From: Aromatoleum toluvorans
GTDB lineage: Bacteria; Pseudomonadota; Gammaproteobacteria; Burkholderiales; Rhodocyclaceae
Direction: 5' to 3'
Length of the DNA stretch: 64,000 bases
Assembly: GCF_012910905.1 (NCBI RefSeq)
Contig: NZ_WTVN01000013.1
Location: 1-64,000, forward strand
Shown here: positions 3,655 to 45,813 of the stretch, one piece after another
Layout of the letters: each line of letters starts with the position of its first letter
How positions within the stretch are numbered: position 1 is the stretch's first letter
The notes under the pieces: model-generated
Told to the model about the DNA's origin: nothing
Database searches by the model: none
Seen by the model: the letters and a program-made list of their open reading frames with translations, nothing else
Position numbers and translations under genes: made by a program

Positions 3655-5175
<1,521 letters not shown>

Positions 5176-5181
5176 TTACGA

Positions 5182-5203
5182 CGAATAAGCTCCAATCGAA
5201 TAA
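5182..5203. promoter_or_regulatory. candidate CbbR operator: CGAATAA direct repeats
   Basis: CGAATAA occurs at 5182-5188 and again at 5197-5203, a 15-base period, in the 109-base cbbL-cbbR gap. LysR-type regulators such as CbbR bind A/T-rich half-sites of T-N11-A form between the divergent genes they control, and this is the most A/T-rich stretch here. Binding is inferred from position and repeat only. Confidence 0.5.
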
Positions 5204-5230
5204 TCAGTGAGTTTGAGATAAGGATTGCTG

Positions 5231-6151
5231 ATGCGACTCGTTCAACGCCTGAGCATGCGCCAGCTGCGCGCGCTGGTCGCCGTCGCCGACTCCGGCAGCT
5301 TCACCGCCGCCGCGCACCTGCTGCACGTGACGCAGCCGGCGGTGTCGATGCAGCTGAAGGAACTCGAGGAGATCACCGGCGAGGTGCTCGTCGACGGCCG
5401 GCGCCAGATCCACCTGACCGCCGCCGGCGAGATCCTCGTGCGCCAGGCGCGCGTCGCGCTCGAAGCCATCGAACTGGCCGAGCTGCAGCTGAAGGCGCAG
5501 CGCGACATGCCGGCGGGCACGATCGAGGTCGCGGCGATCACCACCTCCGAGTATTTCGTGCCCTACCTCTTGGCCGAATTCGGCCGGCGCTACCCCGACG
5601 TCGGCTTCCGCCTGACGGTCGCGAACCGCGAGGTCGTGCACCGGCTGCTGCGCGACCAGCGCGCCGACCTCGCGATCACCGGCGAGCCGCCGAGCGGCCT
5701 GCCGCTGCGCCGCATTCCGTTCGCGCCGCATCCGCTGTCCTTCGTCGCGGCGCCCGATCACCCGCTCGCCGGCCGCGAACGCATCCCGCCCAGCGCACTC
5801 GCCGGCGAGCGGCTGCTGCTGCGTGAACAGGGCTCGGGTACGCGCGCGAACCTCGAACGTTTCCTGCGCGCGGCGCACGTCAAGGCGGTGCGCGCCGACG
5901 AGCTGGGCAGCAACGAGACGCTCAAGCAGGCGGCGATGGCGGGCATGGGGATCGCGTTCCTGTCGCACCAGTGCTTCGCGATGGAACTCGCCGCCGGCCG
6001 CATCGTGCGGCTCCCGGTGCTCGGCACGCCGGTGATGCGCGAGTGGAACGTGCTCGTGCCCGAAGGCCGCGCGCCGACGCCGGCAATGGTGGCGCTGCTC
6101 GACTATTTCCAGGCGGAAGGCGCCGAGCGGCTGCGCGCACTGGCGGCCTGA
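5231..6151 (+). CDS. cbbR: LysR-family regulator of the cbb operon
   Basis: Transcription factor that, in related autotrophs, activates the cbb operon in response to Calvin-cycle metabolites. The 306-residue protein has an N-terminal winged helix-turn-helix (SMRQLRALVAVADSGSFTAA) and a LysR substrate-binding domain from about residue 90 to the end. ATG 5231 was preferred over the in-frame TTG at 5225 because an AAGG site lies about nine bases upstream of it. Divergent orientation from cbbL is the classic CbbR arrangement and is the main reason for the specific name. Confidence 0.9.
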   Translation: MRLVQRLSMRQLRALVAVADSGSFTAAAHLLHVTQPAVSMQLKELEEITGEVLVDGRRQIHLTAAGEILVRQARVALEAIELAELQLKAQRDMPAGTIEVAAITTSEYFVPYLLAEFGRRYPDVGFRLTVANREVVHRLLRDQRADLAITGEPPSGLPLRRIPFAPHPLSFVAAPDHPLAGRERIPPSALAGERLLLREQGSGTRANLERFLRAAHVKAVRADELGSNETLKQAAMAGMGIAFLSHQCFAMELAAGRIVRLPVLGTPVMREWNVLVPEGRAPTPAMVALLDYFQAEGAERLRALAA

Positions 6152-10463: not shown

Positions 10464-10994
10464 TCAGCTCCAGTCGTCCATGTCGTGGCGGATCGTGTGG
10501 CGATTGGCGATCAGCTCGTCGACCGTCGGCTCGTTCGCCAGCGCGCGGCGGATCGCGAGCTTCGTCGCCTCGTAGTTCGTGCGGTACATGTCCTTCTTGT
10601 CGAGCTCGGCGTGCGTCGCGCAGCGCGGGTCGATCCACACCAGGCTGATGATGCACAGGCGGTTGGCCTCGGTCTTCGGGATCACGCCTTCGATCAGGCA
10701 GTCGACCACGGCATCGGCGGTCGCCGACTGCACGACGCCGCCGAACAGCTCGATGTTGGCGCTGTCCTTCAAGGTGACTTTCGGCACGAGCATCGTCGCC
10801 GGCCGCACCAGCTGGTTGCACGCGCGGATCGCGAACATCGCGGTGTGGCCCTTGCTCTGCGCCATCAGGTTCGCGAAGGCCTGGCCGACCGGGCCGTCGG
10901 TGCGGCCGATCAGGATCTCCGGCATCGCGTCGGTGTATTGGCCGTCGGCCGCCAGTACGGTCGCCTCGCCGGCGTGAAAGGTGTAGTCGCTCAT
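10464..10994 (-). CDS. formaldehyde-activating enzyme paralogue, divergent
   Basis: A 176-residue member of the Fae family (Fae2-like). It aligns along its whole length with the canonical Fae at 38987-39499: ILIGRTDGPVGQAF corresponds to [14 protein letters not shown], and LVPKVTLKDSANIELFGG to [18 protein letters not shown]. The histidine of the canonical VAHIDLIIG segment, described as catalytic in Fae, is replaced here (DAMPEILIG). Either it works differently, senses or binds H4MPT derivatives, or is inactive. It follows fhcC by 106 bases on the same strand, so it may be the tail of the fhc operon. Confidence 0.85.
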   Translation of the reverse strand: MSDYTFHAGEATVLAADGQYTDAMPEILIGRTDGPVGQAFANLMAQSKGHTAMFAIRACNQLVRPATMLVPKVTLKDSANIELFGGVVQSATADAVVDCLIEGVIPKTEANRLCIISLVWIDPRCATHAELDKKDMYRTNYEATKLAIRRALANEPTVDELIANRHTIRHDMDDWS

Positions 10995-11100
10995 GAGTGC
11001 TCCAGGGATGGGATGAGGTTGGGTATGAGATCGGGGTTGGGGGGGCGGCCGGCCGCCGTGGCGACCGGCTCGGTATGCGGGAGACCTCACCGCGGCCGGC

Positions 11101-11940
11101 TCAGGCCGGCAGCAGCCATTCCCCCTTGCCGTCGGCGGCGAGATCGCCGACGAAGCGCCGCGGGCGAGCGGCCGCGAGCGCGGCGAACGGGCCGCCGTGC
11201 ACCGCCAGGCTCCGCGCGAGCAGCGTCCAGATCACCTGCACGTCGTGGCCCGTCGGCACGAAGGTCGGGGGCGGCTCGGGCTGCGGACCGGCGAAGATCA
11301 GCGTGCCGCGGCGCATGCCGTAGCCGCAATGCGCGCCCACCGCGCCCGCAACGGCGATCGTGCCGGCAACCAGCCGCGACGCGAGAAAGTCGCCCGCGTC
11401 GCCGAACACGACCGCGGTGCCGCGCCGCATGCGGTCGCCAAAGCGCGCGCCGGCCTTGCCGCGCACGATGAAGAGGCCGCCGCGCATGCCGTCCATGTCG
11501 CCGGGCAACGCGCTGGCCGCGTAGTCGCCGACGTCGCCGCCGACCTCCAGCCGCCCGCCCGCCATCTCGCACGCGGCGAGCAGGCCGGCGCTGCCGGTCA
11601 CGACGATCTCGCCGGCGCGCATCCCGGAGCCGACGTAGTCCCCGACATCGCCTTCGACACGGATGCGCCCGCCGTCGAGCCCGCGGCCGAGCCCGTCGCA
11701 GCGCGACAGGTCGCCTTCGAAGACCAGCTCGGGGCCATCGGCAGCCATCGCTTCGACATCGAAGAATTCGCCGATCGGCACCTGCTCGTTGCCGTGCCAC
11801 AGGGCTCTGCGTGCGACCCCCGATGGCGTCTCGCCGCCCAGTGCCTGCGGCACGAAGCCCGCCAGATCCAGCCGCAGCGCGGGCTGCGCGCGGAGCCGCA
11901 GGCGGAAGGCGTTCGCGTCACGATCGTTCGCCGGACTCAT
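11101..11940 (-). CDS. fhcC: formyltransferase/hydrolase complex subunit C
   Basis: Subunit of the Fhc complex, which moves the formyl group from formyl-H4MPT to methylofuran and hydrolyses it to formate. The 279-residue protein consists largely of glycine-rich short-period repeats (VEGDVGDYVGSGMRAGEI and VGGDVGDYAASALPGD among them), the beta-helix signature shared with FwdC/GltB C-terminal domains. The start codon overlaps the fhcD stop (ATGA at 11937-11940). It is the fourth gene of fhcBADC. Confidence 0.93.
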   Translation of the reverse strand: MSPANDRDANAFRLRLRAQPALRLDLAGFVPQALGGETPSGVARRALWHGNEQVPIGEFFDVEAMAADGPELVFEGDLSRCDGLGRGLDGGRIRVEGDVGDYVGSGMRAGEIVVTGSAGLLAACEMAGGRLEVGGDVGDYAASALPGDMDGMRGGLFIVRGKAGARFGDRMRRGTAVVFGDAGDFLASRLVAGTIAVAGAVGAHCGYGMRRGTLIFAGPQPEPPPTFVPTGHDVQVIWTLLARSLAVHGGPFAALAAARPRRFVGDLAADGKGEWLLPA

Positions 11941-12875
11941 GCCCCCTCCTTGCCCAGCAGCGCGTGCAGGCGGTACAAGTAGGGTCCGAGCTTGCCGCCA
12001 TAGTTGCCGGCGGAGATGCGCCGCACACCGGCGGCCGCACCGCGTGCGACGACCGCTTCCATGCCGACGCGCATCGCCGCGGCGACGTCGCCGTCGGTGA
12101 GCCCGTCGATGACGATTTCCATCACGCAGCCGACCTCCGCGCTCAGTTCGGTCCGCTTCGCGAGCGGCGTCAGCGCCGGGCAGAACGCGTCGTTGCTCGA
12201 TGCCGGCAGCGACGCGTACTTGCTGCCGATTTTCGAGCCCGAGCGCACCACCCCGCCGGGGAAAGGCAGGATCACGTTCGGCAACGCGCGCATCGCCACG
12301 ACCGCCGCTTCCGCGGCGCCGAGCGCGGCCTCGGTGTCGTGCGCGAGGATCAGCAGGTTGCCGCCGCCGACGGCCTTGACCACCGGCGTCGTCTCTTCGG
12401 CGACGAACTCGCCGTCCATCACCGGCACGCGCCAGTAGCGCCGGCCGTCGATGACTTTCGAGATCTGCCAGCCGTCGCCGAAGAAGCGCAGGTTCTTGCC
12501 GAGCGCGGTCCGGTCCGCGTCCGGCGGGCCATCCAGTCCGGTATAGACCGCGGTCGTCGGGCAGGTCAGCACGCACTGGCCGACCCGCCGCTCGATCTGC
12601 TTCGCGAGATCCTTCCCGGACATCGAAAAGATCAGCACCGCCACGCCCGGCCGCCCGTCCGGCGTCTCGCCCGGCTCCAGCACCCGCTCGATGCCCGCTT
12701 CGCAGCCGCAGGCGATCACCGAGGTCGCGAAACCGGTCAGCGCGACCGCGGCGTGGTTCGCCCAGGTCGCGTTGTGCGCCGTGATGACGAGGCGCGTGGC
12801 CTTCATCGGGAAGGCCTCGGCGAAGGTGTCGTCGATCACGACGCCGTTGATCTCCAGCATCGCCGCGGCGCTCAT
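11937..12875 (-). CDS. fhcD: formylmethanofuran-type formyltransferase subunit D
   Basis: Homologue of archaeal Ftr: transfers the formyl group between H4MPT and (methylo)furan. The 312-residue protein starts MSAAAMLEINGVVIDDTFAE, giving the NGVxIDDTFAEAF opening of the family, and contains GSKIGSKYASLPASSND and the C-terminal SAGNYGGKLGPYLYRLH. It overlaps fhcA upstream and fhcC downstream by four bases each (ATGA), so the complex is made by coupled translation. Confidence 0.95.
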   Translation of the reverse strand: MSAAAMLEINGVVIDDTFAEAFPMKATRLVITAHNATWANHAAVALTGFATSVIACGCEAGIERVLEPGETPDGRPGVAVLIFSMSGKDLAKQIERRVGQCVLTCPTTAVYTGLDGPPDADRTALGKNLRFFGDGWQISKVIDGRRYWRVPVMDGEFVAEETTPVVKAVGGGNLLILAHDTEAALGAAEAAVVAMRALPNVILPFPGGVVRSGSKIGSKYASLPASSNDAFCPALTPLAKRTELSAEVGCVMEIVIDGLTDGDVAAAMRVGMEAVVARGAAAGVRRISAGNYGGKLGPYLYRLHALLGKEGA

Positions 12876-14548
12876 TTGCGCCCCCCGCGCCCGTGCAGCG
12901 GGCACGCCAGCAGGCGCCCGCCGTTCGCGCACGCGCACAGCTCGTCGCGGCCGATGGCGGCGTGGCGCCAGGCGGTCGCCAGATGCTCGTCGGCGTACTT
13001 CGCGAGCATGCGCTCGATCGCCGGATCGAACTCCGGCTCGAGGAAATGCGTGCCGCCGACCGGCGTCGCGACGAGCCGGCCCCGTTGCACGACGAGCTCG
13101 CCGTCCTTGAACACGTATTCCGGCGTCGTGAACATCGCCTCGCGATCGGGGTCCTCGCGATACACCGCGATGTCGGCCGCGGCGCCCTCGCCGAGCTGGC
13201 CGCGGTCGGCAAGGCCGAGCAGCCGCGCGGGGGCGGCGCGCGTCATGATCGCGATCTCGTTCAGGCTGAGCTCGCGGCCGATCCCGCGCAGCAGCGCGTT
13301 AACGGCGACCTCGGGATGCAGCTTCGCGAGCTGCTCGTCACGGAAGGACTTGTCCATCAGCAGGCGGATCAGGTGCGGATAACTCGTGAAGGGGCCGCCG
13401 TTCGGGTGGTCGGTCGTCAGCACGACGCGCCACGGGTCGTCGACCAGCAGGAAGAGCTCGAGACCGATCGCCCACTGCAGCGCATTGACGAAGCTCTCCT
13501 CGCGATAGCGGAAAGGCACGATGCCGCAGCCGGCGTCGCACTCGATGTCGGCGCCGATCCACTTGCGCGGGCTGCCGAGATCCGCGTTCGCGTGCTGGCG
13601 CATCGTGTCGCCGGACGCGGTGACGGTCTGCCCGAAAGTGATCTGGCCGACGTCGATGCTCACGTTCGGGTTCGCATTGACCGCCTCGGCCAGTTCGCGC
13701 GCCGCCGACGAGAACTTGCGCGCGCCCTCGGTGCCGTACGCGTGGAACTGTACGTGCGTCAGGTGCCCGCGCAGCCCTTCGAGCGCGGCGATCGTCGCGA
13801 GCGTCGAGCCGATGTTGCCCGGCACGCCGAGGTTGCTCGCGTGGATGTGCAGCGGATGCGGGATGCCGAGCTCGGTGAGCGCGCGCGCGAGCGTTTGCAC
13901 GACCTGGCGCGGCGTGATGCGCCAGTGCGTGTGGTCCTCGTCGACGTCGAGCTTGCGCTGGTTGAACTTGAACGCCGAGATGCCGCCGGGATTGACGACC
14001 TTGACGCCCATCGCGCGCGTCGCGTGGATCGTCCAGCCGACGTAATCGCGGATGCGCTCGAAATCCTGGCCCTCGGCGAGCATGCGCAGCATCAGCTCGT
14101 CGTTGCCGAGCATCACGTAGGCGCCGTGGTCGAGGATCGGCGTGTCGCCCATCTCCATGTGCGCGTGGCGCGCGTTCGACGGCGCCATCGCCGGCTCGAA
14201 GGCCGCCGTGTAGCCCATCTCGGCGTAGCGGTAGCCGGTCGCGAGCGTGCCCGGCGTGCAGCAGCCGGCGGACGCGAGCTCGAGCGGGTTATCCGGCGCG
14301 CGGTTGGCGCGGTGGTCCTCGGGCAGCAGCATGCGCGCGAGGTTCACCTTGCCGCCGCCAATATGCGTGTGCATGTCGATGCCGCCGGCCATCACGACCA
14401 TGCCGGAGACGTCGAACTCGCGGTCGACCTTCTCGGCCGGATGCAGCGCGACGATGCGGCCGTCGCGCACGCCGATGTCGCGGACCTCGCCGTCGATGCC
14501 GTTGGCCGGATCGATGATGCGGCCGCCTTTGAGACGCAGCGTGCTCAT
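12872..14548 (-). CDS. fhcA: formyltransferase/hydrolase complex subunit A (amidohydrolase)
   Basis: Amidohydrolase-fold subunit that releases formate from formyl-methylofuran. The 558-residue protein opens with LRLKGGRIIDPANGIDG, followed by the metal-binding GGIDMHTHIGGGKVN at about 53-67 and further histidines in HPLHIHASNLG and TTDHPNGGPFTSYPH. It matches the archaeal FwdA/FmdA and Methylorubrum FhcA pattern over its length. The C-terminal tail contains CACANG and ACPLHG cysteines. Stop and start codons overlap fhcD, and fhcB overlaps its start (14545-14548). Confidence 0.96.
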   Translation of the reverse strand: MSTLRLKGGRIIDPANGIDGEVRDIGVRDGRIVALHPAEKVDREFDVSGMVVMAGGIDMHTHIGGGKVNLARMLLPEDHRANRAPDNPLELASAGCCTPGTLATGYRYAEMGYTAAFEPAMAPSNARHAHMEMGDTPILDHGAYVMLGNDELMLRMLAEGQDFERIRDYVGWTIHATRAMGVKVVNPGGISAFKFNQRKLDVDEDHTHWRITPRQVVQTLARALTELGIPHPLHIHASNLGVPGNIGSTLATIAALEGLRGHLTHVQFHAYGTEGARKFSSAARELAEAVNANPNVSIDVGQITFGQTVTASGDTMRQHANADLGSPRKWIGADIECDAGCGIVPFRYREESFVNALQWAIGLELFLLVDDPWRVVLTTDHPNGGPFTSYPHLIRLLMDKSFRDEQLAKLHPEVAVNALLRGIGRELSLNEIAIMTRAAPARLLGLADRGQLGEGAAADIAVYREDPDREAMFTTPEYVFKDGELVVQRGRLVATPVGGTHFLEPEFDPAIERMLAKYADEHLATAWRHAAIGRDELCACANGGRLLACPLHGRGGRK

Positions 14549-15831
14549 CGCGCTCCTCCTTCGGCACGCGCCGCAGCGATGTTTGCGGCGATGTCCGCCG
14601 CGACCTCCGCGACGCCCGGCAGCGTGTCCGCGTAGATCGGCACGAGCGGCAGCACGACGCCGCCATCGGCGCGGAAGAGATGCCCGGCGGAGCCGATGCC
14701 CGGCGTCGACACCGGGATGAACACCGAATTCGCCCGAGCCGCGGCCTCTTCGAGCCCCGGGTGACCGAGCACGACGAGCGGCAGCCCGGTGTCGGGCGGC
14801 GCGAGCTCGGGCGAGAACGCGGACACCCACAACAGGGCATCCACGGCGCGCTGCGCGAGGAGCCGCGCGGTCGCGTAGCGCTGCGGCTCATGCACGAGCC
14901 CGCGCATGTGCACGCCGGTGCGCAGCGGCAATCCCGACAGCCAGGTCATCACCTGGTTAGCCGTGTAGCCGCCATCCCCGCCGCCAAGGCAGAACGCCGC
15001 CGCGCGCGTCGTGCGGTTGAGCGTATTGACGATGCGCTGGATCGCTTCGGCGACGAGCGCGCCCTGGGCCGGCAGGCTGGACGATTCCCACACGACTACC
15101 GTGTAGCGCGCCGCCTGCATGCGCACGATGAGCGCGTCGAGCGCGGGATCGCTCGCGGCCGTGCGGCGCCCGGCCAGCCGCGCAGCGATGAGCGCGACGG
15201 TGTCGAAGACGTCGCCGGCGAAGCCGATCTCCTCCGTCGTGCAGGCCTCCAGCCCGGGCACGGACGCTGCCATGCACGCGCCGACGAAGACGACATGCCG
15301 CGCGGGCGCATCCGCGGCCGGCGCCGTGCGGCGGAAGAACTCCGGATAGTGGTCGGTCGCGTTCGTGCCGAGGCAGACGACGAGGTCGGCGCGGTTACGG
15401 ATCTCGGCCAGCGTCGTGTAGAAGACGCCGCGGTCCTGCAGCGCGCGGGTCGACACCATCAGCGCGTCGCCATTGGCGTGATCGAGGATCGCGCCGCAGC
15501 CGTTCGCGAGGCGGTACAGCGCGCGCATGCCGGCGACGTCGGTCGCGAGCCCCGCGAAGAGCGGCTGGGCGCTCGCACCGAGGATCGCGGCCGCCGCCGC
15601 GACGGCGCTGCGATGATCGACGGCGCGTCCGTCGACCCGGGCCGTCGCCGACGCCGGCGCGGCGCCGAAGTGGGACAACGCGGCGGCCGCGCGCCCGCAG
15701 TCGCTGCCGATCAGCGTCGGCCGTGGTGCCGCCGCGAGCGAAAAGCCGTCGCAGCACAGCGGGCAGAACGGGCAGGTCCAGGGCCGGCCCGTCGCCGCGG
15801 CGGGAGGTGGAGAGGCAGGATTGGCAGTCAT
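14545..15831 (-). CDS. fhcB: formyltransferase/hydrolase complex subunit B
   Basis: Homologue of the FwdB subunit of tungsten/molybdenum formylmethanofuran dehydrogenase. In bacteria the complex hydrolyses rather than oxidises and no longer needs the metal-pterin. The 428-residue protein has a cysteine-rich start (TCPFCPLCCDG, about residues 21-31), VVCLGTNATDHYPEFFRR near 190 and GGGDGGYTANQVMTW near 300. ATG 15831 has GGAG a few bases upstream. It is the first gene of fhcBADC; the promoter region carries a sigma-54-type -24/-12 match and a dyad shared with the mptG operon. Confidence 0.93.
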   Translation of the reverse strand: MTANPASPPPAAATGRPWTCPFCPLCCDGFSLAAAPRPTLIGSDCGRAAAALSHFGAAPASATARVDGRAVDHRSAVAAAAAILGASAQPLFAGLATDVAGMRALYRLANGCGAILDHANGDALMVSTRALQDRGVFYTTLAEIRNRADLVVCLGTNATDHYPEFFRRTAPAADAPARHVVFVGACMAASVPGLEACTTEEIGFAGDVFDTVALIAARLAGRRTAASDPALDALIVRMQAARYTVVVWESSSLPAQGALVAEAIQRIVNTLNRTTRAAAFCLGGGDGGYTANQVMTWLSGLPLRTGVHMRGLVHEPQRYATARLLAQRAVDALLWVSAFSPELAPPDTGLPLVVLGHPGLEEAAARANSVFIPVSTPGIGSAGHLFRADGGVVLPLVPIYADTLPGVAEVAADIAANIAAARAEGGAR

Positions 15832-15843
15832 GGCCACTCCAAG

Positions 15844-15858
15844 GCAAGCGACATGCCA
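15844..15858 (-). promoter_or_regulatory. sigma-54 (-24/-12) promoter match for fhcBADC
   Basis: Minus-strand TGGCATGTCGCTTGC has the invariant GG and GC at the right spacing and differs from the xoxF element in one base of 15. A start 12 bases downstream would fall at about 15832, almost on the ATG, bypassing the visible GGAG site. A weaker match (CGGCGAAGGGCTTGC, 15879-15893) would leave a 36-base leader. One of the two is probably real; which one cannot be told from sequence. Confidence 0.6.
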
Positions 15859-15954
15859 CCTCGCCGCGCCCCTGCCACGCAAGCCCTTCGCCGCCGAACG
15901 GGCACCCTACGGCGCTGCCCGGCTCAACAGTGTGTCAGCGCCGCCCGCCGCGGC

Positions 15955-15972
15955 ACGGGACACACTGTCACG
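15955..15972 (-). promoter_or_regulatory. candidate activator site (dyad) upstream of fhcB
   Basis: Minus-strand CGTGACAGTGTGTCCCGT, with dyad GACA-N3-TGTC, 124 bases before the fhcB ATG. It matches the site before mptG (45796-45813) in 16 of 18 bases, at a distance from the start codon that differs by one base. Position and symmetry fit an enhancer-binding-protein site. Confidence 0.65.
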
Positions 15973-16214
15973 AAGCCCCCCGCAGTTCAGGGCACGGGGC
16001 GGGCCGTTGGCGCACAACTCCCGCTTCGGCCGTGCGGATCCCGGCATCTGGCACGAATCCTGAAAGAAGCGGAAACCGGCCCGAACCGCCCCGTTTGCCA
16101 TGTCCATCCGCCACTTTCCGCCTGCCTCGAACGCCGCACCGCCACGGGCCGTGGCGTGCCCAACCCTATCTCCCCCTCGGCGACCGGACCGCAGCCGCGG
16201 AACGGCTACGCCGA

Positions 16215-22656: not shown

Positions 22657-24459
22657 TCAGTCGGGCAGCGCGAACACCGTGAGCGAGCCGCCCAGCGCGG
22701 TGTGCTTCTGCAGGTCGCGATAGCCGCCGACGGCACCCAGGCCTTCGGCGTCCTTCTCGAGACCCGCGGCCATGCCGATGCCGGCCCATCCGCCGATGCC
22801 CGAATACACACCGACGTACTGCTTGCCTTCATACATGTACGTGAAGACGTTGCCGATGATCCCGGACGGGGTCTTGAACTTCCACAGCTCCTTGCCGTCC
22901 TTCAGGCTCACGGCCTTCAGGTAGCCTTCGAGCGTGCCGTAGAAGAGCACGTCGCCCGCGGTCGTCAGCGCGCCGCTCCACACCGAGAACTTCTCGGGCT
23001 TGGACCACACGATCTTGCCCTTGCCGGCATCCCACGCGATGAAGTTGCCCATGCCGCCGTGGCTCTTCGGCGCCGGATACATCGACAGCGTCGCCCCGAC
23101 ATACGGTTGACCAGCGGTATATTGGATTTCAAACGGCTCGTAATCCATGCAGACGTGGTTGGTCGGCACGTAGAAGAGCCCGGTCTTGGGATGGAAGGAC
23201 GCCGGCTGCTGGTCTTTCGAGCCGAGCGCCGCGGGGCAGATCCCCTTCGTGTTGACGTCGGGTCCGTTCTGCTGCGTGCTGTACTTCGCGACGACCTCCG
23301 GACGGCCGGTCTTCATGTCGACGTGGGTGGCCCAGTTGACCGCCGGGTCGTACTTCTCGGCGACGAGCAGCGCGCCGGTCGTGCGATCGAGCGTGTAGCC
23401 GAAGCCGTTGCGGTCGAAGTGCACCAGCGCCTTGGTCTTCTTGCCCTTGACGTCGATGTCCGCGAGGATCATCTCGTTGACGCCGTCGAAGTCCCACTCG
23501 TCGTGCGGCGTCATCTGGTACACCCACTTCACCTTGCCGGTGTTGAGGTCACGCGCCCAGATGCTCATCGACCACTTGTTGTCGCCGGGCCGCTGCGAGG
23601 GGTTCCAGGTACTCGGGTTGCCGCTGCCGTAATAGACGAGGTTCAGGTCCTTGTCGTAGCTGTACCAGCCCCACGTCGTTCCGCCGCCGGTCTTCCACTG
23701 GTCGTCCTTCCAGGACTTCAGCGACGAGTCCTTGCCGACCGGCACGAGCTTGCCGTCGCTCCAGGTCACCGTCTTTTCCGGATCGATCAGCATCTCGTCG
23801 TCCGGGCCCGTGCTGTAGCCGCGCCACACCTGCTTGCCGGTCTTGACGTCGTACGCGGTCAGGTGGCCGCGCACGCCCCATTCGCCGCCCGAGATGCCCG
23901 TGATGACCTTGTCGCCGAAGACATGCGGCGCATTGGTGGCCACGGCACCGAGCTTCGGATCGCCGTTCTTGACCGACCACACGACCTTGCCGGTCTTGGC
24001 GTCGAGGGCGTCGAGCACGCTGTCGGCGCGTTGCAGGAAGATCTTCCCGTCAGCGAACGCCAGGCCGCGGTTGACGGTGTCGCAGCACATCTGCGCGATC
24101 ACCGCCGAATCCTGCTTCGGCTCGTATTTCCACAGGATCTCCTGGGTCTTCAGGTCCACCGCGAAGACGTTGTTGGGGAAGGGGGTGTGGATGTACATGA
24201 CGCCGCCAATGACGAGCGGCGAACCTTCATGACCGCGCAGCACGCCGGTCGAAAAGGTCCACGCCGCCTGCAGTTTCTTGACGTTGCCGGCGTTGATCTG
24301 CTTGAGCGCGCTGTAGCGCTGGTTGTAGTTGTCGCCCGCCTGCACGGCCCAGTTGGCCGGGTCCTGCATGGCGCGGTCGAGTTGCCCGTCGGCGTGCGCG
24401 AGCCCCGCGCACGTGAAAACGACCCCGGCAATCAGTGGATGCTTCAAGGCCATACTCAT
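22657..24459 (-). CDS. xoxF: lanthanide-dependent methanol dehydrogenase XoxF
   Basis: Periplasmic PQQ methanol dehydrogenase, 600 residues, signal peptide ending near residue 23. The Cys125-Cys126 disulfide, Glu193 (GGEWG), Asn281 and catalytic Asp323 match quinoprotein alcohol dehydrogenases. Asp325 in DEWDFDG supplies the extra carboxylate that marks lanthanide-using enzymes; calcium MxaF has a small residue there. No mxaFI is present. The ribosome site GAGGAGA is strong. A perfect -24/-12 sigma-54 element lies about 160 bases upstream and tandem activator-like sites about 300 bases upstream. It leads an eight-gene periplasmic operon. Confidence 0.97.
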
Positions 24460-24582: not shown

Positions 24583-24606
24583 CGGGACAGTTTCCTCCCT
24601 GTCCCG
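24583..24606 (-). repeat. hairpin at the predicted 5' end of xoxF mRNA
   Basis: CGGGACAG and CTGTCCCG form a perfect eight-base stem with an eight-base loop. A sigma-54 start 12 bases past the -12 element would be at about 24607, so the stem would be the first thing in the transcript. It could protect the 5' end or be an operator, since it repeats the GGGACA half-site. Confidence 0.55.
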
Positions 24607-24752: not shown

Positions 24753-24784
24753 TTACAAAATGTCCCGTTACACAGTGGTCCCGT
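24753..24784 (+). promoter_or_regulatory. tandem activator-like sites upstream of xoxF
   Basis: TTACAAAATGTCCCGT (24753-24768) and TTACACAGTGGTCCCGT (24768-24784) are consecutive copies of the pattern TKACA-N4-KGTCCCGT seen before fhcB and mptG. They lie about 130-150 bases upstream of the -24 box, in reverse orientation, which enhancer sites tolerate. Confidence 0.55.
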
Positions 24785-24916
24785 TGCCGCACAGTCGGCG
24801 ACCGCAACGCAATGCCGCGCACGGCACGCGCGAGCCCCACGGCAGGCTGCGCCTTGGCATGGATCGTGATTTAGACAAGGAAGCGAACGGCAGGTGCGGC
24901 CGATCGCGTCGCCGGA

Positions 24917-36022: not shown

Positions 36023-38038
<2,016 letters not shown>

Positions 38039-38986: not shown

Positions 38987-39499
38987 TTACACGTGTGCAG
39001 CGAACGGGTGCGCCATCGAGGATTTCTTCGCGACCACTTCCGCCGCACTCGGCTGGCCCGCCACGGCCCGCTGGATCGACTCGCGCGTCGCCTGGTAGTT
39101 GTAGTCCTGGATCTTCTTGTCATCCTCGGCGAGCCAGTGGATGAAGACGCCGACGCAGAGGAACAGGTTGTCCGCCTCGTCCGCCGGAATCGTCCCGTCC
39201 TCGACGCTGTCGGCGACCGCCATCGCGACCCCGCGCTGTGCCGGCCCGAACATCTGCACGGCCTGCTTGGCGCCCTTGATCGTGACCTTGTTGAACATCA
39301 CCGTCGGCGGTTTCGTCATCAGGTTGGGCGCGACCACCGCGAGCAGCGAGGTGAAGCCGTCCTTGTTGTTCGTCAGCGCGTGGCTGAACGCCGATTCCGC
39401 GGGGCTGCCGCGCGGCCCGATGATGAGGTCGATATGCGCAACCTCGTTGCCGTCTCCCACCAGCGACTCACCTACCAGCATGCGATCGATTTTTGCCAT
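38987..39499 (-). CDS. fae: formaldehyde-activating enzyme
   Basis: Condenses formaldehyde with H4MPT to methylene-H4MPT, the entry point of formaldehyde oxidation and detoxification. The 170-residue protein matches classical Fae from end to end: [20 protein letters not shown] with the catalytic-type histidine (His22), [38 protein letters not shown] and the final HPFAAHV. ATG 39499 has AAGGAG upstream. A TGTCCC/GGGACA palindrome lies at 39531-39550. It ends at the strong terminator at 38913. Confidence 0.97.
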
Positions 39500-39530
39500 T
39501 GCATGTTTCTCCTTTGAGTGTTTCATCCGA

Positions 39531-39550
39531 TGTCCCTCATCGGGGGGACA
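39531..39550. promoter_or_regulatory. palindrome TGTCCC-N8-GGGACA before fae
   Basis: Perfect six-base inverted repeat, eight-base spacer, 32 bases upstream of the fae start codon and within the 98-base gap after the citG-like gene. It reuses the half-site found in the dyads at 15955 and 45796. Confidence 0.4.
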
Positions 39551-39597
39551 CCGAAGTTCCGGACGTCGGAATGAACCCGATGTCGGAGCAGGTGAAC

Positions 39598-40515
39598 TCA
39601 CGTTTTATGCCAACTTTCGGCCACGCGCAGGCCAATTGCGTCCGGCCGCAGCAATGCACCCGCAAAAAGCGTGCAGACGGTCAGGTCCGCGCTCGTTCCG
39701 GGGTTGATTCCCGTGCTTTTCAGGCGCTCGTCCCACGCGGCGAACCCGGCCGACTCCCCGACGCCATGTTCACGGTGGAAGCGGCCGAGCCACGCGGCGG
39801 CCTCGGCGGTGACAGTCTGCGCCGCGGCAGGACCGAGTTTTCGCACAATGTGTGTATCGGGCCAGGTCGCGAGAAACGTGAGAAAAACCGATTGCACCGC
39901 GCGCGCGAGATGCTCGCCCGTCAGCGCTTCGGCGCCCAGCGCGGCGAGGCCGTGATCGAACACGTCGGCATAGCCGTTGGCATACTGGCGGGCGATGCTG
40001 TCGCGCCCGGCGGCGAGCGTCATGGCGGCGCGCAGATCGATCGTCGGCTCGTCCGCGACGTCCTGCTCGCCCGACTGCCCGAGCCCGCCGGGGTTCGCGA
40101 GGGCGATCGCGCGATAGGCGGCGCGCGCGTCGTCGAGATCGAGGTCCGCGAGCACCGTCTGCAGCGCGCCGCGCAAGGCGGCGGAATCGATGCACCGCGA
40201 AGCGTCCCGGCTCGCGACGGCCTCGAGCGCCGCCGCGATCGGCGCACACAGCAGCAGGATGCCCAGGTTGGTGTTGCAGCCGACTGCTGCGCGCGTCGCC
40301 GCGACCGCCGCCTCGATGCGCTCGCCGACGGGCACCCCGCGCGCGAACAGCGGCCCGGCGGACACCTCCGCGCTCGCGAGAAAGGCCTGCGCCTGCATGC
40401 CGTGGCCGCCCGAGTGGCGGCTGACGTTGCCGGGTTTGCGCACCGCGACGTCGAGCCCGCAGGCCCACAGGAACGCGGCCCGCCCGTGGGCGAGCCGTTC
40501 GTCGATCGCGTCCAT
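39598..40515 (-). CDS. triphosphoribosyl-dephospho-CoA synthase (CitG/MdcB)-like protein
   Basis: A 305-residue protein of the CitG family: [20 protein letters not shown] near 22, [17 protein letters not shown] near 80, and [14 protein letters not shown] near 155. There are no citrate or malonate decarboxylase genes nearby, so the citrate-lyase role is unlikely. CitG-like genes recur in bacterial H4MPT clusters and may transfer a ribosyl-phosphate group during cofactor synthesis, which is inference. It starts five bases after mptN and closes the mptG operon. Confidence 0.85.
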
Positions 40516-40520
40516 CGCCG

Positions 40521-41504
40521 CTACCCCGCGCGCTCGAGCGCGTCGGCCGGCGACAGGGCGACGCCCAGGCGACGGCCGAGGAGATCGTCCACCATCGCCT
40601 GCGCGATGTCGAAACCCGTCACCGACTGCAGCCCCCGCCACGCCGCGACACCATTCACTTCGAGCACCTGTGCGCCGTGCGGCGCGCTTGCGTCGGGCAC
40701 GAGATCGACCCCGGCGTAATCCATGCCGAGTGCGGTGGCGGCGCCTTCCGCAAGCGTCGCGAGCGTGGGCGTGACCTGCGCCGCCTGGCAGCGTGCCCCT
40801 TGCGCGACGTTCCTGACCCAGTGCGCGCTCACGCGCCGCATCGCCGCGACCGCCCGTCCGCCGACCACGAGCACGCGCCAGTCGAAACCCGGCGCGCCCG
40901 GCCCCTCGGGTTGCGGCACGAAGCGCTGCAGATAGGCGAGCCGGCCGTAGTCCGCGAGATCGGGCAGCGGCACCGGGCGGCCGTCGACGCAGCCGACGCG
41001 CTGCAGGCCCTTGCCCTGCGATCCGAACAGCGGTTTCAGCACGAGGCAGCGGCCGGCCGCCGTCTCGGCCATCACCAGCCGCCGCGCCTCGGCCTCCGAC
41101 TCCAGTGCCCACGACGGCGGCGACGCGATGTCGGCGCGGTGCAGCAGGAAACTCGTCATCGACTTGTCGACGCTGCGCTCGATTGCCCGCGCATCGTTAT
41201 AGACCGGCACGCCGAGCTCGCGCAGCGCGTGCAGGATGCCGAGCCGCTTCGTGACCTGTTCGAGGCTGCCGCCGGCGATGCCGCGCACGATCGCGGCCAC
41301 CGGCAGCGTGCGCCCGAAGCCGGGGATCACGATGCCGGGGCCGGCCCGGGAGGTGTCGAAGCGGCAATCCTCGAGGTCCGCGCAGCGGCCTTCGTAACCG
41401 CGGCGCGCCAGCGCCCGGCGCAAACGGGTGGTATGCCAGCCCGTCTCGTCGGTCAGGATCGCCACGCGGGGGCGCCCGGGCGCCGAGAGGTCGAGGGGCG
41501 TCAT
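40521..41504 (-). CDS. mptN: H4MPT-cluster ATP-grasp ligase (MptN/RimK-like)
   Basis: RimK-family ATP-grasp enzyme, 327 residues, resembling the tetrahydromethanopterin alpha-L-glutamate ligase. Visible are VAILTDETGWHTTRLRRAL at the start, NDARAIERSVDKSMTSFLL near 105, CLVLKPLFGSQGKGLQRV (ATP-binding lysine and glycine loop) near 155, and QVLEVNGVAAWRGLQSV near 285. It would add glutamate to the cofactor tail. The start overlaps the mch stop (ATGA, 41501-41504). Confidence 0.87.
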   Translation of the reverse strand: MTPLDLSAPGRPRVAILTDETGWHTTRLRRALARRGYEGRCADLEDCRFDTSRAGPGIVIPGFGRTLPVAAIVRGIAGGSLEQVTKRLGILHALRELGVPVYNDARAIERSVDKSMTSFLLHRADIASPPSWALESEAEARRLVMAETAAGRCLVLKPLFGSQGKGLQRVGCVDGRPVPLPDLADYGRLAYLQRFVPQPEGPGAPGFDWRVLVVGGRAVAAMRRVSAHWVRNVAQGARCQAAQVTPTLATLAEGAATALGMDYAGVDLVPDASAPHGAQVLEVNGVAAWRGLQSVTGFDIAQAMVDDLLGRRLGVALSPADALERAG

Positions 41505-42517
41505 GCCTCGTCCAGCCACAGACGCCGCAGCAAGCCCATGTCGAGCTTGCCGGCGTGCCACGTGCGCCCGCTCACAAGGCTGCTGACCCAGACCTCGGCC
41601 GGCGCGAACAGCGCCCCGTCGATGCGGTAGAAGTCGTATTCGTAGTCGCGGAAGATGTCGGCGAACGAGCGCCCGTAGTCGCGCGAAGTCGATGACGGCA
41701 GCTTGTGCGCGAGCTCGCGCGCCGCCTCGTCGTCGCCGGCGACCGTCAGGTGAACCTGGCCGCCGTAGAGGATCGCGTCGTTCGTGCGCCCCATCGCGAC
41801 GCCCGCGTCCGGGCTCGGCGCCGGCAGCGGCGCGCGGGCGCTGCCGTCGACGATGTCGCCCAGCGCAAAACCCAGTTCATGCGCCTTGTGCAGCGCGACT
41901 TCGAGCACGCGCGCGACGACCTGTGTCGAGCCGGCGAGGCTCGTCGTCGGCGTCAGCACCAGCGTGAGCTGCGACGGTTCGAGGCCGCAGTCGCGCAGGA
42001 TCTTGTCGATCACGACCGGCGGCGGCGCGCGGTCGACCTCGAGCACCAGCACGGCCGGGCCGACGCGGTCGCGGTAGCCGAGTTCCTCGAACAAGGGTTC
42101 CCGGCACGCGAGCGCGCGCGCCGGACCGGAGCCGAGCGAGAAGAACTTCCGGCCCCCGCCCTCCTCCTTGCTCGCCGAGAGGCTCCAGCCCGCGTACTGG
42201 CTCGCGAGGCACGCGAGCACCGGCTGCGAACTGGCGACTTCGACCCACGTCGGCCAGCTGCCTTCGCTACCGCCCTCGCCGCCCGACGCGAGGCGCACGC
42301 GGCCGAGCCCGCCCATGCAGATCTCGCCGACCGCGAGCCCCGCGGCGACGCTGCCGCGCGTGTTGATCCCGGCATCGACGATCGTGACGCCCGCATCCGT
42401 CCGCTGCACGTCGAGCCGCCACTCGTCCGCGCGGCCGATCAGCCGCGTGACGAGCGGTGCCGCGAGTTCATTGACACTCGAGCGCTCGGCCGCGAGCACT
42501 TTCGCTGCTTCGTTCAT
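41501..42517 (-). CDS. mch: methenyl-H4MPT cyclohydrolase
   Basis: Hydrolyses methenyl-H4MPT to formyl-H4MPT, the step between MtdB and Fhc. The 338-residue protein has the family landmarks SVAAGLAVGEICMGGLGRV near 46, SSQPVLACLASQYAGWSLS near 85, KFFSLGSGPARALA near 110 and SRDYGRSFADIFRDYEYDFY near 275. The first 50 coding bases overlap the end of the upstream ATP-grasp gene, unusual in an operon otherwise joined by four-base overlaps. Confidence 0.96.
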   Translation of the reverse strand: MNEAAKVLAAERSSVNELAAPLVTRLIGRADEWRLDVQRTDAGVTIVDAGINTRGSVAAGLAVGEICMGGLGRVRLASGGEGGSEGSWPTWVEVASSQPVLACLASQYAGWSLSASKEEGGGRKFFSLGSGPARALACREPLFEELGYRDRVGPAVLVLEVDRAPPPVVIDKILRDCGLEPSQLTLVLTPTTSLAGSTQVVARVLEVALHKAHELGFALGDIVDGSARAPLPAPSPDAGVAMGRTNDAILYGGQVHLTVAGDDEAARELAHKLPSSTSRDYGRSFADIFRDYEYDFYRIDGALFAPAEVWVSSLVSGRTWHAGKLDMGLLRRLWLDEA

Positions 42518-43661
42518 TCGCCTGCTCCATGAGGAAGGGTATCTGCCGGCGCCGCCGCGACAGCAGCGCCTCGACTTCGTCTGCATTGCCGCCGGCGGCT
42601 GAGACCGTGCACAGCGGCTCGCCGCGCCCGATGCTCGTGTCGCTCACCGGCAGGTCGTGGCACCACGTCTGCTGCGCAAGCACCGCCGATTCCGGCGCGC
42701 CGACGCTCCAGGCGCGCTGCGCGAACACGGTCTCGAAGCCGCGCATGTCCGCGGCGGCATGCCGTTCGGGCGCCGGCAAGCGGCCGTCGAGGCTCGCCTC
42801 GACGTGGGCCCGCAGCAATCCCTCCGGCAACGCGTCGGGATACAGCGCGATGCTCGCCGGCGGGCGGGGGTTGAGTTCGATCACGCGGATCTCGTCGTCG
42901 TCGAGCAGGAAGTCGAGCCCGTTCAAGCCGCGCAGGCCGAAATCGGCAACCAGCGCGTCGAGCATCGCCTCCAGCGCGCAACGGACGGACGGCGCGACGC
43001 CGACCGGCCCGATACAGCCGTGGAACACGAAGGGACGCCCGCAGAACGGCCGCACGATCTGCATATTGACGCCGACGAGCCGGCTGCGGCGGCCGTCGGC
43101 CACGAAGAGCGCCGACATCGGCGCGCCCGCGGCGATGCGCTGGTAATAGATCGAAGATTCCGCGTCGGCATCGTCCGGACGCGCCGCACGGACGTCCCAG
43201 CCGCCGCTGCTCGCCGCGTTCTTGCGCAGCCAGCCACGCGGCGACGGTGGACGCTCGCAGCGGGTCTGCGGGTGGGGGATGCCCAGCGCCGCGAGGCGCC
43301 CGTAGAACTGCGCCGGATCGCGCACGCGCGCGGCGACCTCGGGTGGATTGCCCGCGAGCGGCAGCACCGCCTGCCCTGCCGCGAGGAGTTCCGGATGTCC
43401 GTCGAAGCCGCTCCCCGCCACCCACGCCTGCGCCCCCGCGGTGCGGGCACGGCCCAGGGCGTCGACCAGCGCGTCGCCGTCGATCACGAGACTCGCCGCG
43501 TCCCCGATCGGCAGGCACACTTCCGCTACGCGGCGCGTGTCGCGATCCGCGAAGAGATCCAGCGCGATCACCCGATAGCCGCTGGCGCGCGCCGCCTCGG
43601 CCAGCATGCGCGCCGAGAGTCCGGCGACGGCGAGCAACGGGGGCACGCGCGGCTCCGCCAT
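42468..43661 (-). CDS. ATP-grasp protein of the H4MPT cluster
   Basis: A 397-residue ATP-grasp-fold protein. Features are LLAVAGLSARMLAEAARASG at the start (Rossmann-like), VAGSGFDGHPEL near 82, GWLRKNAASSGGWDV near 144 and IRVIELNPRPPASIALYP near 258 with the metal-binding Glu and Asn. It is distinct from the RimK-type MptN two genes away and from MfnD. Such a gene regularly lies between mtdB and mch in proteobacteria; its substrate is unknown. The ATG at 43661 shares one base with the mtdB stop, and a GTG at 43664 would overlap by four. Confidence 0.83.
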   Translation of the reverse strand: MAEPRVPPLLAVAGLSARMLAEAARASGYRVIALDLFADRDTRRVAEVCLPIGDAASLVIDGDALVDALGRARTAGAQAWVAGSGFDGHPELLAAGQAVLPLAGNPPEVAARVRDPAQFYGRLAALGIPHPQTRCERPPSPRGWLRKNAASSGGWDVRAARPDDADAESSIYYQRIAAGAPMSALFVADGRRSRLVGVNMQIVRPFCGRPFVFHGCIGPVGVAPSVRCALEAMLDALVADFGLRGLNGLDFLLDDDEIRVIELNPRPPASIALYPDALPEGLLRAHVEASLDGRLPAPERHAAADMRGFETVFAQRAWSVGAPESAVLAQQTWCHDLPVSDTSIGRGEPLCTVSAAGGNADEVEALLSRRRRQIPFLMEQANERSSESARGRALECQ

Positions 43662-44572
43662 CACTGGCCGTCTTTCTCGGCGATGACCTCGCGTGCCATC
43701 GCGAAGGCTTCGCGGAAACCGAGATAGACCGCTTTGTCGCCTTCGCGCATCGAGCGCAGCAGCCGGTGCTCCACCTGATACTTGACGTTGCCGATCGCGA
43801 GCGCGCCGATGCCCACGCCCCGTCCTTCGGGCAGCTGCTTGCCGTCGTCCATGACGCCGACCCCGGCGATCCCCTCGGGCGGCACCGCATTGACGTCCGC
43901 CGCGACGAGCAGCTGGGCGGCGGCCGCGCGTTCCGCTTCCGAGACGACCTGGACGCCGGCCACCGACGCCGCCAGCACGATGTCGGCCCCCGCGAGTGCC
44001 GCGCGGCGTGCCTCCGGCGTGCTCGCATCGGCACCGGCCAGCACGCAGCCGAAGCGCTGACCGGTCTCCGCGGCAGCGGCCTCGGCCGACGCCAGCTTCG
44101 CGTGATGGCCGAGCGACACCTCCGCACCGAGCCCCGCGGCGAGGACGCCGGCGATGCGCCCGACCGTGCCGGTACCGCCGAGCACGAGCACCCTCTTCCC
44201 GGCGAAGCTCGTGTCATGCGCACGCTGCAGCTGCCGCTCGACGCAGGCAACCAGAGCCGCCGCGGTCGTGTAGGAGCCGCTCGGATCGGCCATCACCGAC
44301 ACTTCGAAAGGCGGCACCATCGCGGCACGCGCCGTCTCCAGCATGTCGGACGCGAGCATCACGTTGCGCCCGCCGATGAAGATGCCGGTGGCCTTCACGC
44401 CCTTCGGTCCGCGCGAGAAGATCGCGTCCTGCGTAAGGCCGCGGATCTCCGCGGCGCTCACGTCGCAATAGGGCACGACCACGTCGTAGCCCGCGTCGAC
44501 CGCCATGTTGATGTCGAACGGGCTCATCTGGGCGGAAGGGGTGAACATGTGGAGGATGTATCGGGCTGGCAT
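43661..44572 (-). CDS. mtdB: NAD(P)-dependent methylene-H4MPT dehydrogenase
   Basis: Oxidises methylene-H4MPT to methenyl-H4MPT with NAD or NADP. The 303-residue protein starts YILHMFTPSAQMSPFDINMA, family-typical, with the substrate-site AIFSRGPKGVKATGIFIGG near 52-70 and a Rossmann site VLVLGGTGTVGRIAG near 128. It resembles MtdB rather than the folate-active MtdA, matching the rest of the cluster. It follows mptG by 55 bases. Confidence 0.95.
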   Translation of the reverse strand: MPARYILHMFTPSAQMSPFDINMAVDAGYDVVVPYCDVSAAEIRGLTQDAIFSRGPKGVKATGIFIGGRNVMLASDMLETARAAMVPPFEVSVMADPSGSYTTAAALVACVERQLQRAHDTSFAGKRVLVLGGTGTVGRIAGVLAAGLGAEVSLGHHAKLASAEAAAAETGQRFGCVLAGADASTPEARRAALAGADIVLAASVAGVQVVSEAERAAAAQLLVAADVNAVPPEGIAGVGVMDDGKQLPEGRGVGIGALAIGNVKYQVEHRLLRSMREGDKAVYLGFREAFAMAREVIAEKDGQ

Positions 44573-44627
44573 GGGGTCCGTCCGTGGCGAAGGAAAATCG
44601 ATAAAAAGGGAACGGCCGGAAGCGCGA

Positions 44628-45671
44628 TCAGGCGCTGCCGCGGCCGTCCCGAGGAGCAGAAGGTCGGTCGTCGAGCCGCGCACCGTGGTTGCGCCCGGCC
44701 ACGACGACCAGCCGCAGCGCCGGATCGACGACGCCGGCCGCGCGCGCGGCGGCGACGGCCTCGGCGCAGCGCTCCGCCGACGGCAGGATCGCGAAGCCGG
44801 TCGGCCCCCACGAGCTCTGCCCGATGCCGGCGCAATAGCGCGGGCGGATCCACTCAAGCACGCGTTCGACGGCCGGGCTGGTGTACATCGAGCCCCCCTG
44901 CGCCGGCGCGAAGTAGTCGCCGATGATCCGCTGCAGCGTCGACACGCCCTCGGCGAACGGCTCGAAGTCCGCCTCCATCGTGCCGGGCAGCACGCGCATC
45001 ACGACCTGATGGCAGAGCTCGGCAGCCAGCTCGCGCGGGAAAGGCGCAAGGCGGTCCATCGCGACGCGCTCGTCGGTGCCGTGCAGGCCGTCGCAACGCT
45101 CGTCGAGCACCAGCAGCACCCGCCAGGCTTGCGGGAAGGCGATGCGGGCAAGCAGCGGCGGCGTCGCGCCTGCAGCCCCCGGCCCACCGTCGAGCAGCAG
45201 CCCTCCCCGGTCGAAGCCGGCGATGCCGACACCGGATCGACCGCCCCGCGCCAGCAAGGCGGCGATGCGCCGGGTGTCGAGGTCGAGCCCGTGACAAGCG
45301 CCGAACGCGCGCCCCAGCGCGAGCGCGAGCTGCGTCCCGGAGCCGAAGCCGGCGTGTGCGGGCGGGCCGCCATGCAGCACCACGCGCACGGGCGTGTCCG
45401 CCCCGGTCTCGGACCGCAGCGTCGCCAGATGCCGCGCGATGCGCTCACGGACGTCGTCGGCGCAACCGGCAGGCACCACGATGGCGTCGTGCGCCGCAGC
45501 CGACACGCTCACGCGCGTGCTCATTCCGTCGATGACGAGGCCGAGGCTCGCGAAGCGGCGGCCGAGCGAGGCGTTCGGGTCGAGGAATCCGAGATGCAGC
45601 CGCGCCGGCGCGTCTACCAGGGCTACGGCGGGGGCGGCGGAGATCGACGATGCGCATGAGGCAAAGGTCAT
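44628..45671 (-). CDS. mptG: beta-ribofuranosylaminobenzene 5'-phosphate synthase
   Basis: Condenses p-aminobenzoate or a derivative with phosphoribosyl pyrophosphate and releases CO2, the committed step of H4MPT synthesis. The 347-residue GHMP-kinase-like protein opens with VDAPARLHLGFLDPNASLGR, and has the glycine-rich GGPPAHAGFGSGTQLALALG near 116 and GIGQSSWGPTGFAIL near 300. It is the first gene of mptG-mtdB-(ATP-grasp)-mch-mptN-(citG-like). A -24/-12 promoter match lies 60 bases upstream and the shared dyad 125 bases upstream. Confidence 0.93.
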   Translation of the reverse strand: MTFASCASSISAAPAVALVDAPARLHLGFLDPNASLGRRFASLGLVIDGMSTRVSVSAAAHDAIVVPAGCADDVRERIARHLATLRSETGADTPVRVVLHGGPPAHAGFGSGTQLALALGRAFGACHGLDLDTRRIAALLARGGRSGVGIAGFDRGGLLLDGGPGAAGATPPLLARIAFPQAWRVLLVLDERCDGLHGTDERVAMDRLAPFPRELAAELCHQVVMRVLPGTMEADFEPFAEGVSTLQRIIGDYFAPAQGGSMYTSPAVERVLEWIRPRYCAGIGQSSWGPTGFAILPSAERCAEAVAAARAAGVVDPALRLVVVAGRNHGARLDDRPSAPRDGRGSA

Positions 45672-45730: not shown

Positions 45731-45745
45731 GCAAACTCCGGGCCA
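45731..45745 (-). promoter_or_regulatory. sigma-54 (-24/-12) promoter of the mptG operon
   Basis: Minus-strand TGGCCCGGAGTTTGC matches TGGCACG-N4-TTGC except for one base. The predicted start near 45719 gives a 48-base leader to the mptG ATG. Confidence 0.7.
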
Positions 45746-45795: not shown

Positions 45796-45813
45796 ACGGG
45801 ACACTTTGTCACG
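45796..45813 (-). promoter_or_regulatory. candidate activator site (dyad) upstream of mptG
   Basis: Minus-strand CGTGACAAAGTGTCCCGT, dyad GACA-N3-TGTC, centred about 60 bases above the -24 box. It is the near-twin of the site at 15955-15972. Confidence 0.68.

Follow-up and report, generated by a model that had tools for sequence, protein, structure and literature searches.

The regulators AcoR, DhaR and BmoR (the last from Thauera butanivorans) have GAF, AAA+ and Fis-type helix-turn-helix domains, all of which recur in the regulator considered here. NorR, a GAF-type enhancer-binding protein, has the operator GTCA-N3-TGAC; the dyad described below has the same 4-3-4 geometry, with half-site GACA in place of the GTCA of NorR. 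The published description of BmoR (PMC8899819) presents it as an alcohol-responsive enhancer-binding protein acting at a sigma-54 promoter, whose -24/-12 boxes are preceded, at a distance of 193 bp, by an upstream activating sequence (UAS). A study of reconstructed sigma-54 regulons in Clostridiales (PMC6615313) places AcoR among 15 groups with distinct motifs, and the UASs of those regulons (for example, TGT-N10-12-ACA) are also inverted repeats upstream of -24/-12 promoters. In our case the half-sites are GACA and TGTC around a 3-bp centre.

We analyzed a stretch of 64,000 nucleotides from Aromatoleum toluvorans (the window), in which several operons of one-carbon (C1) metabolism, concerned with methanol and formaldehyde among others, very probably share the landing site of one activator and are switched on together via sigma-54 RNA polymerase. 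The target set of this activator, H4MPT/methanofuran formaldehyde oxidation together with XoxF, is unlike that of AcoR, DhaR and BmoR, a distinction of gene content rather than of operator letters. The best explanation, which we hold to be very likely, is that the GAF-AAA+-Fis protein of the cluster activates fhcBAD, mptG-mch, xoxF and fae through a shared UAS. The genes concerned are as follows.

10464..15831 (-): fhcB, fhcA, fhcD and a fae-like gene
22657..24459 (-): xoxF-type PQQ methanol dehydrogenase (TIGR03075, 753.3 bits, cut-off 480)
36026..38038 (-): GAF-AAA+-HTH_8 enhancer-binding protein, probable activator; translation taken to begin at the Met of MSSMLEP
38987..39601 (-), ORF bounds: fae, formaldehyde-activating enzyme (TIGR03126, 246.7 bits, cut-off 118)
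39598..45671 (-): mptG operon, with mptG, a putative dehydrogenase gene, an ATP-grasp gene, mch, an mptN-like ligase gene and a citG-like gene

The product of mptG belongs to the beta-RFAP synthase family, and the homologue of one gene of this operon in Azoarcus sp. KH32C is annotated as NAD(P)-dependent methylene-H4MPT dehydrogenase. Plasmid pAZKH of that strain carries a similar cluster, in whose annotation the regulator is called a 'sigma-54-dependent Fis family transcriptional regulator'.

The original prediction held that an 18-base dyad is shared by the fhc and mptG operons, and both 18-mers were found exactly where it had placed them; counting also verified distances of 124 and 125 bases to the ATG codons at 15831 (fhc) and 45671 (mptG). 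As for the tandem copies that it reported before xoxF at 24753-24784, the first is good, while the second proved degenerate and one base longer. The second fhc copy, the fae site and the sigma-54 promoters at three operons were absent from it. Because these promoters lie downstream of the sites, the presumed operator becomes an upstream activating sequence. The sites and candidate promoters are listed below, mismatches of the promoters being relative to TGGCACG-N4-TTGC.

15955..15972 (-): UAS dyad before fhcB, CGTGACAGTGTGTCCCGT
15926..15937 (-): second, weaker UAS copy before fhcB, TGACACACTGTT
15844..15858 (-): sigma-54 -24/-12 promoter of fhcB, TGGCATGTCGCTTGC, 1 mismatch
24753..24766 (-): UAS dyad before xoxF, GGGACATTTTGTAA
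24768..24782 (-): degenerate second copy before xoxF, 1 base longer, GGGACCACTGTGTAA
24619..24633 (-): sigma-54 -24/-12 promoter of xoxF, TGGCACGTCGCTTGC, 0 mismatches
45796..45813 (-): UAS dyad before mptG, CGTGACAAAGTGTCCCGT
45731..45745 (-): sigma-54 -24/-12 promoter of mptG, TGGCCCGGAGTTTGC, 1 mismatch
39810..39823 (+): UAS before fae, 2 mismatches, within the 3' part of the citG-like coding sequence, TGACAGTCTGCGCC
39845..39853 (-): second UAS-like core before fae, also within the citG-like gene, ACACATTGT

When we scanned the host genome (4,797,596 bases in 117 contigs), the motif did not occur widely and at random, the outcome that would have refuted the original prediction; in its full form it is rare and lies before C1 operons. 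When up to 3 mismatches are allowed, the shared 18-mer pattern matches at 25 places, of which two have 0 mismatches (fhcB and mptG) and 23 exactly 3; its reversed control likewise has 25, so that only the two exact 18-mers stand out. The wider dyad GGGACANNNTGTNA occurs at four places in the 4.80 Mb genome (control 1): before fhcB, xoxF and mptG, and once elsewhere. That fourth copy (C29:174325) has no match to any window gene within its 3 kb locus or a surrounding 20 kb stretch (L052), and we dropped it as a member of the regulon. A combined scan for UAS plus promoter gave five matches (control 1), two of them fhcB and mptG and three others. The bare dyad TGACANNNTGTC with at most 1 mismatch is neither rare nor enriched in the window (10 places versus 7.5 in shuffles), and a one-mismatch copy of the pattern TGACANNNTGTCCC lies at 1024, where no operon is listed. 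At 3 mismatches, 26 of 100 shuffles reached the number of places that the 18-mer pattern has in the window (2). This figure, together with there being just two near-identical copies, would suit the view that the fhc and mptG sites match without any function, through chance or as a leftover of DNA duplication; the zero-mismatch copies are, however, unique in 4.8 Mb, and the relatives examined below bear on the same question.

GG and GC stand 10 nt apart in the TGGCACG-N4-TTGC frame at fhcB, mptG and xoxF. On both strands of the 64 kb window there are four 15-mers of the form TGGC-N7-TTGC, three of which lie 3' of the dyads on the coding strand of the operon, and an rpoN gene is present in the genome. 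No standard -12 element was found at fae, where the only candidate was TGGCATAAAACGTGA, with GA replacing GC. The fhcB ATG begins 12 nt after the TTGC of its promoter in the window. Of 24 genomes with a promoter that fitted the search pattern, 21 have this ATG 12-16 nt past the TTGC; the mRNA should therefore be leaderless or nearly so.

Two other elements were noted near these promoters. An inverted repeat, GGGACA-N10-TGTCCC, lies at 24584-24605, just 3' of the xoxF promoter, and a leader hairpin of differing sequence is seemingly kept in several relatives; judged by eye, as was this conservation, the repeat is not favoured as an additional operator. A second shared element, TGGCAYRRAWCRTGA, is found near fhc, xoxF and fae at 16049-16063 (+), 24855-24869 (+) and 39598-39612 (-). 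It contains the dyad CACG-N3-CGTG, and its GG and GA, 10 nt apart, resemble a -24/-12 promoter with GA for GC. The genome holds two exact copies, both in the window, and seven more at 1 mismatch, of which the window contains one (control 2); the element is also seen near fae and fhcB in several relatives.

The regulator open reading frame spans 36023-38182 (719 residues), with a probable start at 38038. Its GAF, Sigma54_activat and HTH_8 (Fis family) domains each score above the Pfam cut-off, whereas its best NCBIfam equivalog matches, DhaR (NF008485, 279.9 bits against a cut-off of 551) and PrdR (NF041552, 284.5 bits against 795), fall far short of their cut-offs. Genes of afpA/dmrB-like and DUF6513 type, by appearance cofactor genes, overlap or border the regulator gene. 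The GAFTGA sequence is present in the window regulator and absent solely in genome G143 among 48 sequences from the window and relatives; in this comparison, among the 80 loci listed, the Paraburkholderia loci L060 (55%) and L061 (54%) served as near-orthologues, while a further 21 stood for paralogues. In the G143 homologue (L046, 16950-18881) the GAFTGA loop is degenerate, so that contact with sigma-54 should weaken.

Protein searches for relatives of the regulator covered 300 genomes from the order, 249 from its own family and 299 from another family (f49); mch was sought in the order and own-family sets (300 and 249), scoring the best few candidates per genome. Genomes fetched around homologues of roughly at least 44% identity are called regulator genomes; those described as having no close regulator may hold weaker homologues (best 2.5e-133). 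For the UAS score we took, in stretches around the regulator or mch, the sequence ahead of each operon that comes closest to TGACANNNTGTCCC. Rows were dropped if fewer than 250 upstream bases were available (counts at up to 2 mismatches) or fewer than 300 (counts at up to 1), as were xoxF matches below 60%. In the own family 27 of 249 genomes passed a regulator threshold of E<=1e-135, and six (G316, G334, G363, G443, G496 and G517) were left out of the site counts; G309, G405 and G350 were counted in the distant set, and G150 has no target operon. For f49, 21 of 30 were examined, and G026 and G030 had short contigs with no target. G170 was counted as regulator-bearing on a split 49-50% match beside afpA, although some excluded genomes have E-values at least as good, and four genomes (G430, G484, G525 and G308) were counted apart from both groups.

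Among the 249 own-family genomes, 21 have both regulator and mch, 6 the regulator only, 5 mch only (26 mch carriers in all) and 217 neither, an association with a Fisher p of 1e-20 that is nominal because the genomes are related. With up to 2 mismatches, the UAS was found in regulator genomes before mptG in 29 of 38, before fhcB in 19 of 31 and before fae in 29 of 39 (29/43, 19/36 and 29/44 with five genomes of the genus g140 included), and at none of these genes in distant genomes that have mch and no close regulator homologue (0/14, 0/14 and 0/17, respectively). Sigma-54 promoters, at up to 2 mismatches, are also rare in distant genomes without a close regulator (mptG 1/14, fhcB 0/14). At up to 1 mismatch the counts were 18/33 for mptG, 7/26 for fhcB and 14/35 for fae, where 60 column-permuted patterns gave means, summed over groups, of 0.22, 0.06 and 0.18. 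Twelve other genes gave no match at this threshold except REG (1/46); at 2 mismatches, dhps_like had matches in 5 of 10 own-family genomes. The xoxF UAS was present in 9/9 cases in the own family, 0/4 in f49 and 0/6 further off; G143 xoxF has neither UAS nor promoter, and most distant xoxF regions are likewise without a UAS. The best -24 element before mptG in f49 mostly reads GGAAC instead of GGCAC, and just 5 of 16 fhcB regions there pass the UAS threshold, with weaker cores visible. Cupriavidus oxalaticus X32 has a UAS and a sigma-54 promoter before fhcB. Three Paraburkholderia loci (L060, L061 and L277) carry the fae site, and no site was found within 500 bp of mptG in L060 or L276. A scan for GTGACASWSTGTCCC with at most 1 mismatch in 22 whole genomes, 17 of them regulator carriers and 5 not, gave 18 places, of which 11 lie before mptG (8), fhcB (2) or xoxF (1) and 7 elsewhere; the reversed pattern gave 11.

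The genomes counted apart gave pooled values at up to 2 mismatches of 2/4 for mptG, 0/2 for fhcB, 1/4 for fae and 1/3 for xoxF. Three of them (G430, G484 and G525, loci L220-L225) are own-family genomes with mch and no scored regulator; they keep the sigma-54 promoters (mptG 3/3, fhcB 2/2, xoxF 3/3), and their sites at 2 mismatches number 1/3 at mptG, 1/3 at xoxF, 0/2 at fhcB and 0/3 at fae. G430 has a 40% regulator homologue at the edge of the cluster, perhaps reflecting a regulator swap.

G150 has a 46% regulator homologue and no mch, and in it (L048, 13019-14619) a one-mismatch site and a full-consensus sigma-54 promoter, TGGCACGAGCTTTGC, precede a methanethiol oxidase gene (NF052453, 735.3 bits, cut-off 650), with a second TTGTCAC just downstream of the first. 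On plasmid pTB101 of Aquabacterium olei (L274), a 54% homologue at 3740-5767 follows dimethylamine monooxygenase genes; at 17187 an exact TGACACTGTGTCCC precedes a sugar-phosphate gene set whose link to C1 metabolism is not evident.

From 57 intergenic sites we refined the motif to G T G A C A S W S T G T Y C C. Its A-C-A and the T-G after the centre are present in all 57, which is partly forced by the search; the central W (55/57) and the leading G (46/57) are not. Most columns flanking the dyad carry little information across the diverged genomes. The nearly equal distances of 124 and 125 bases to the start codons seem fortuitous, and we rejected them as meaningful: the dyad centre lies 107 bp from the GG of the -24 element at fhcB and 61 bp at mptG. 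Across genomes these spacings cluster near 39, 50-52, 61-63, 71-75, 83-85, 95-96 and 112 bp for mptG and near 52-53, 62, 84-85, 95 and 105-107 bp for fhcB. These sites are helically phased, with a Rayleigh R at 10.5 bp of 0.71 for mptG (n=27) and 0.86 for fhcB (n=13), a test that omits an mptG spacing of 178 (G430) and an fhcB spacing of 142 and takes in G308; on a coarse grid of periods R peaks at 11-11.5 bp and 11 bp, respectively. The xoxF spacings (n=10) showed no 10.5-bp phasing (R 0.32). By hand count, two dyad centres lie 33 bp apart at fhcB and likewise at fae. A dyad that recurs upstream of the same operons while most flanking columns are uninformative speaks against chance or duplication, as do the comparison with permuted patterns and the helical phasing; given also the rarity in the genome and the recurrence with the regulator, we rejected that origin as highly improbable.

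Who binds the dyad is a separate matter. That it is bound by the enhancer-binding protein of the cluster (36026-38038) we judge likely from the comparative evidence, and the dimeric Fis-type helix-turn-helix of an AcoR-like protein that the original prediction named as binder is supported by the HTH_8 domain, the rare motif and its recurrence with the regulator gene across genera. If the dyad instead served a different protein, be it a repressor, the AraC-type product of 29404-30192 or some other enhancer-binding protein, the cluster protein would act elsewhere. This would fit the genus g140, where regulator homologues (45-47%) lie away from mch and sites number 0/5 at each of mptG, fhcB and fae; the genome itself encodes further relatives of the regulator (39% and 34% identity), and G308, which has no regulator at E<=1e-135, still has a 2-mismatch site before mptG, which counts against our model. 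Against a different binder, site presence follows the cluster regulator, and the sites precede sigma-54 promoters by tens to hundreds of bases, with helical phasing at mptG and fhcB, an arrangement more in keeping with an enhancer than with a repressor. We consider a different binder improbable.

The fae site sits towards the end of the citG-like gene that precedes fae, where conservation could reflect the protein. By our own count, CA-N3-TGTC is kept there in 7 of the 8 genomes read from the own family and in 14 of the 14 from f49; a further set keeps it in 3 of 9, and two more read TGTA. It is found in 0/5 genomes of g140, 0/9 distant genomes and 0/5 own-family genomes without a scored regulator, in which a citG-like gene was not read upstream of fae. 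The residues encoded at the site vary (QT, QP, HT, QN, QC, QA, HS, QS or HI), and in 21 of the 22 own-family and f49 genomes read (own count) the codon before a conserved Val ends in T. The second fae core, CAY ATT GT, is also present in 21 of 22 (own count). AT-ending codons alone are a poor discriminator; distant low-GC genomes use them too. We rejected mere protein conservation because the T-ending codon is kept while the residue varies, and because genomes without a scored regulator, those of g140 and distant ones never keep CA-N3-TGTC. A DNA motif retained while residues change points to selection on DNA within coding sequence.

The sites, the promoters at three operons, the domains, the recurrence with the regulator and the phasing at two operons are read from sequence; binding, hexamer formation and activation are inferred from the enhancer-binding protein family. 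By that analogy, the GAF-AAA+-Fis protein (36026-38038) would bind the dyad as dimers at a distance of some 40-200 bp before the -24/-12 promoters. On meeting a C1 signal through its GAF domain it would form a hexamer that touches sigma-54 RNA polymerase through the GAFTGA loop, with the DNA looped. The fhcBAD, mptG-mch and xoxF operons would then be switched on jointly, and fae too, through sites hidden in the upstream gene. As for the signal, our guess is that formaldehyde or a close C1 derivative is the likeliest; formaldehyde itself we rate as somewhat short of even. Methanethiol oxidase and dimethylamine monooxygenase form formaldehyde. The G150 methanethiol oxidase site and the Aquabacterium olei dimethylamine monooxygenase cluster point to formaldehyde formation rather than methanol, and so weigh against an inducer other than formaldehyde (methanol, lanthanide status, or a pterin or methanofuran precursor) acting through the same regulator and sites. 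The cofactor-like genes beside the regulator gene would suit such an inducer, and we regard one as close to an even prospect.

Our searches of open PubMed Central papers, among them PMC6615313, PMC8899819, PMC13300288, PMC5023235 and PMC5874634, did not turn up this regulon, nor did they return a description of the control of H4MPT-linked formaldehyde oxidation and XoxF in facultative beta-proteobacterial methylotrophs. Within the literature searched, this sigma-54 regulon with its own UAS is new in content and operator and ordinary in mechanism. With a regulator gene, a 15-base operator and promoter candidates in hand, the question of C1 control becomes directly testable, and the regulator and operator could yield a C1-responsive genetic sensor. 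For the beta-proteobacteria, we tentatively suggest, at rather less than even confidence, that a formaldehyde-sensing sigma-54 master switch may join formaldehyde production from methanol, methanethiol and perhaps methylated amines to H4MPT-linked oxidation, with operators that are partly intragenic and an fhcB mRNA that would be nearly leaderless.
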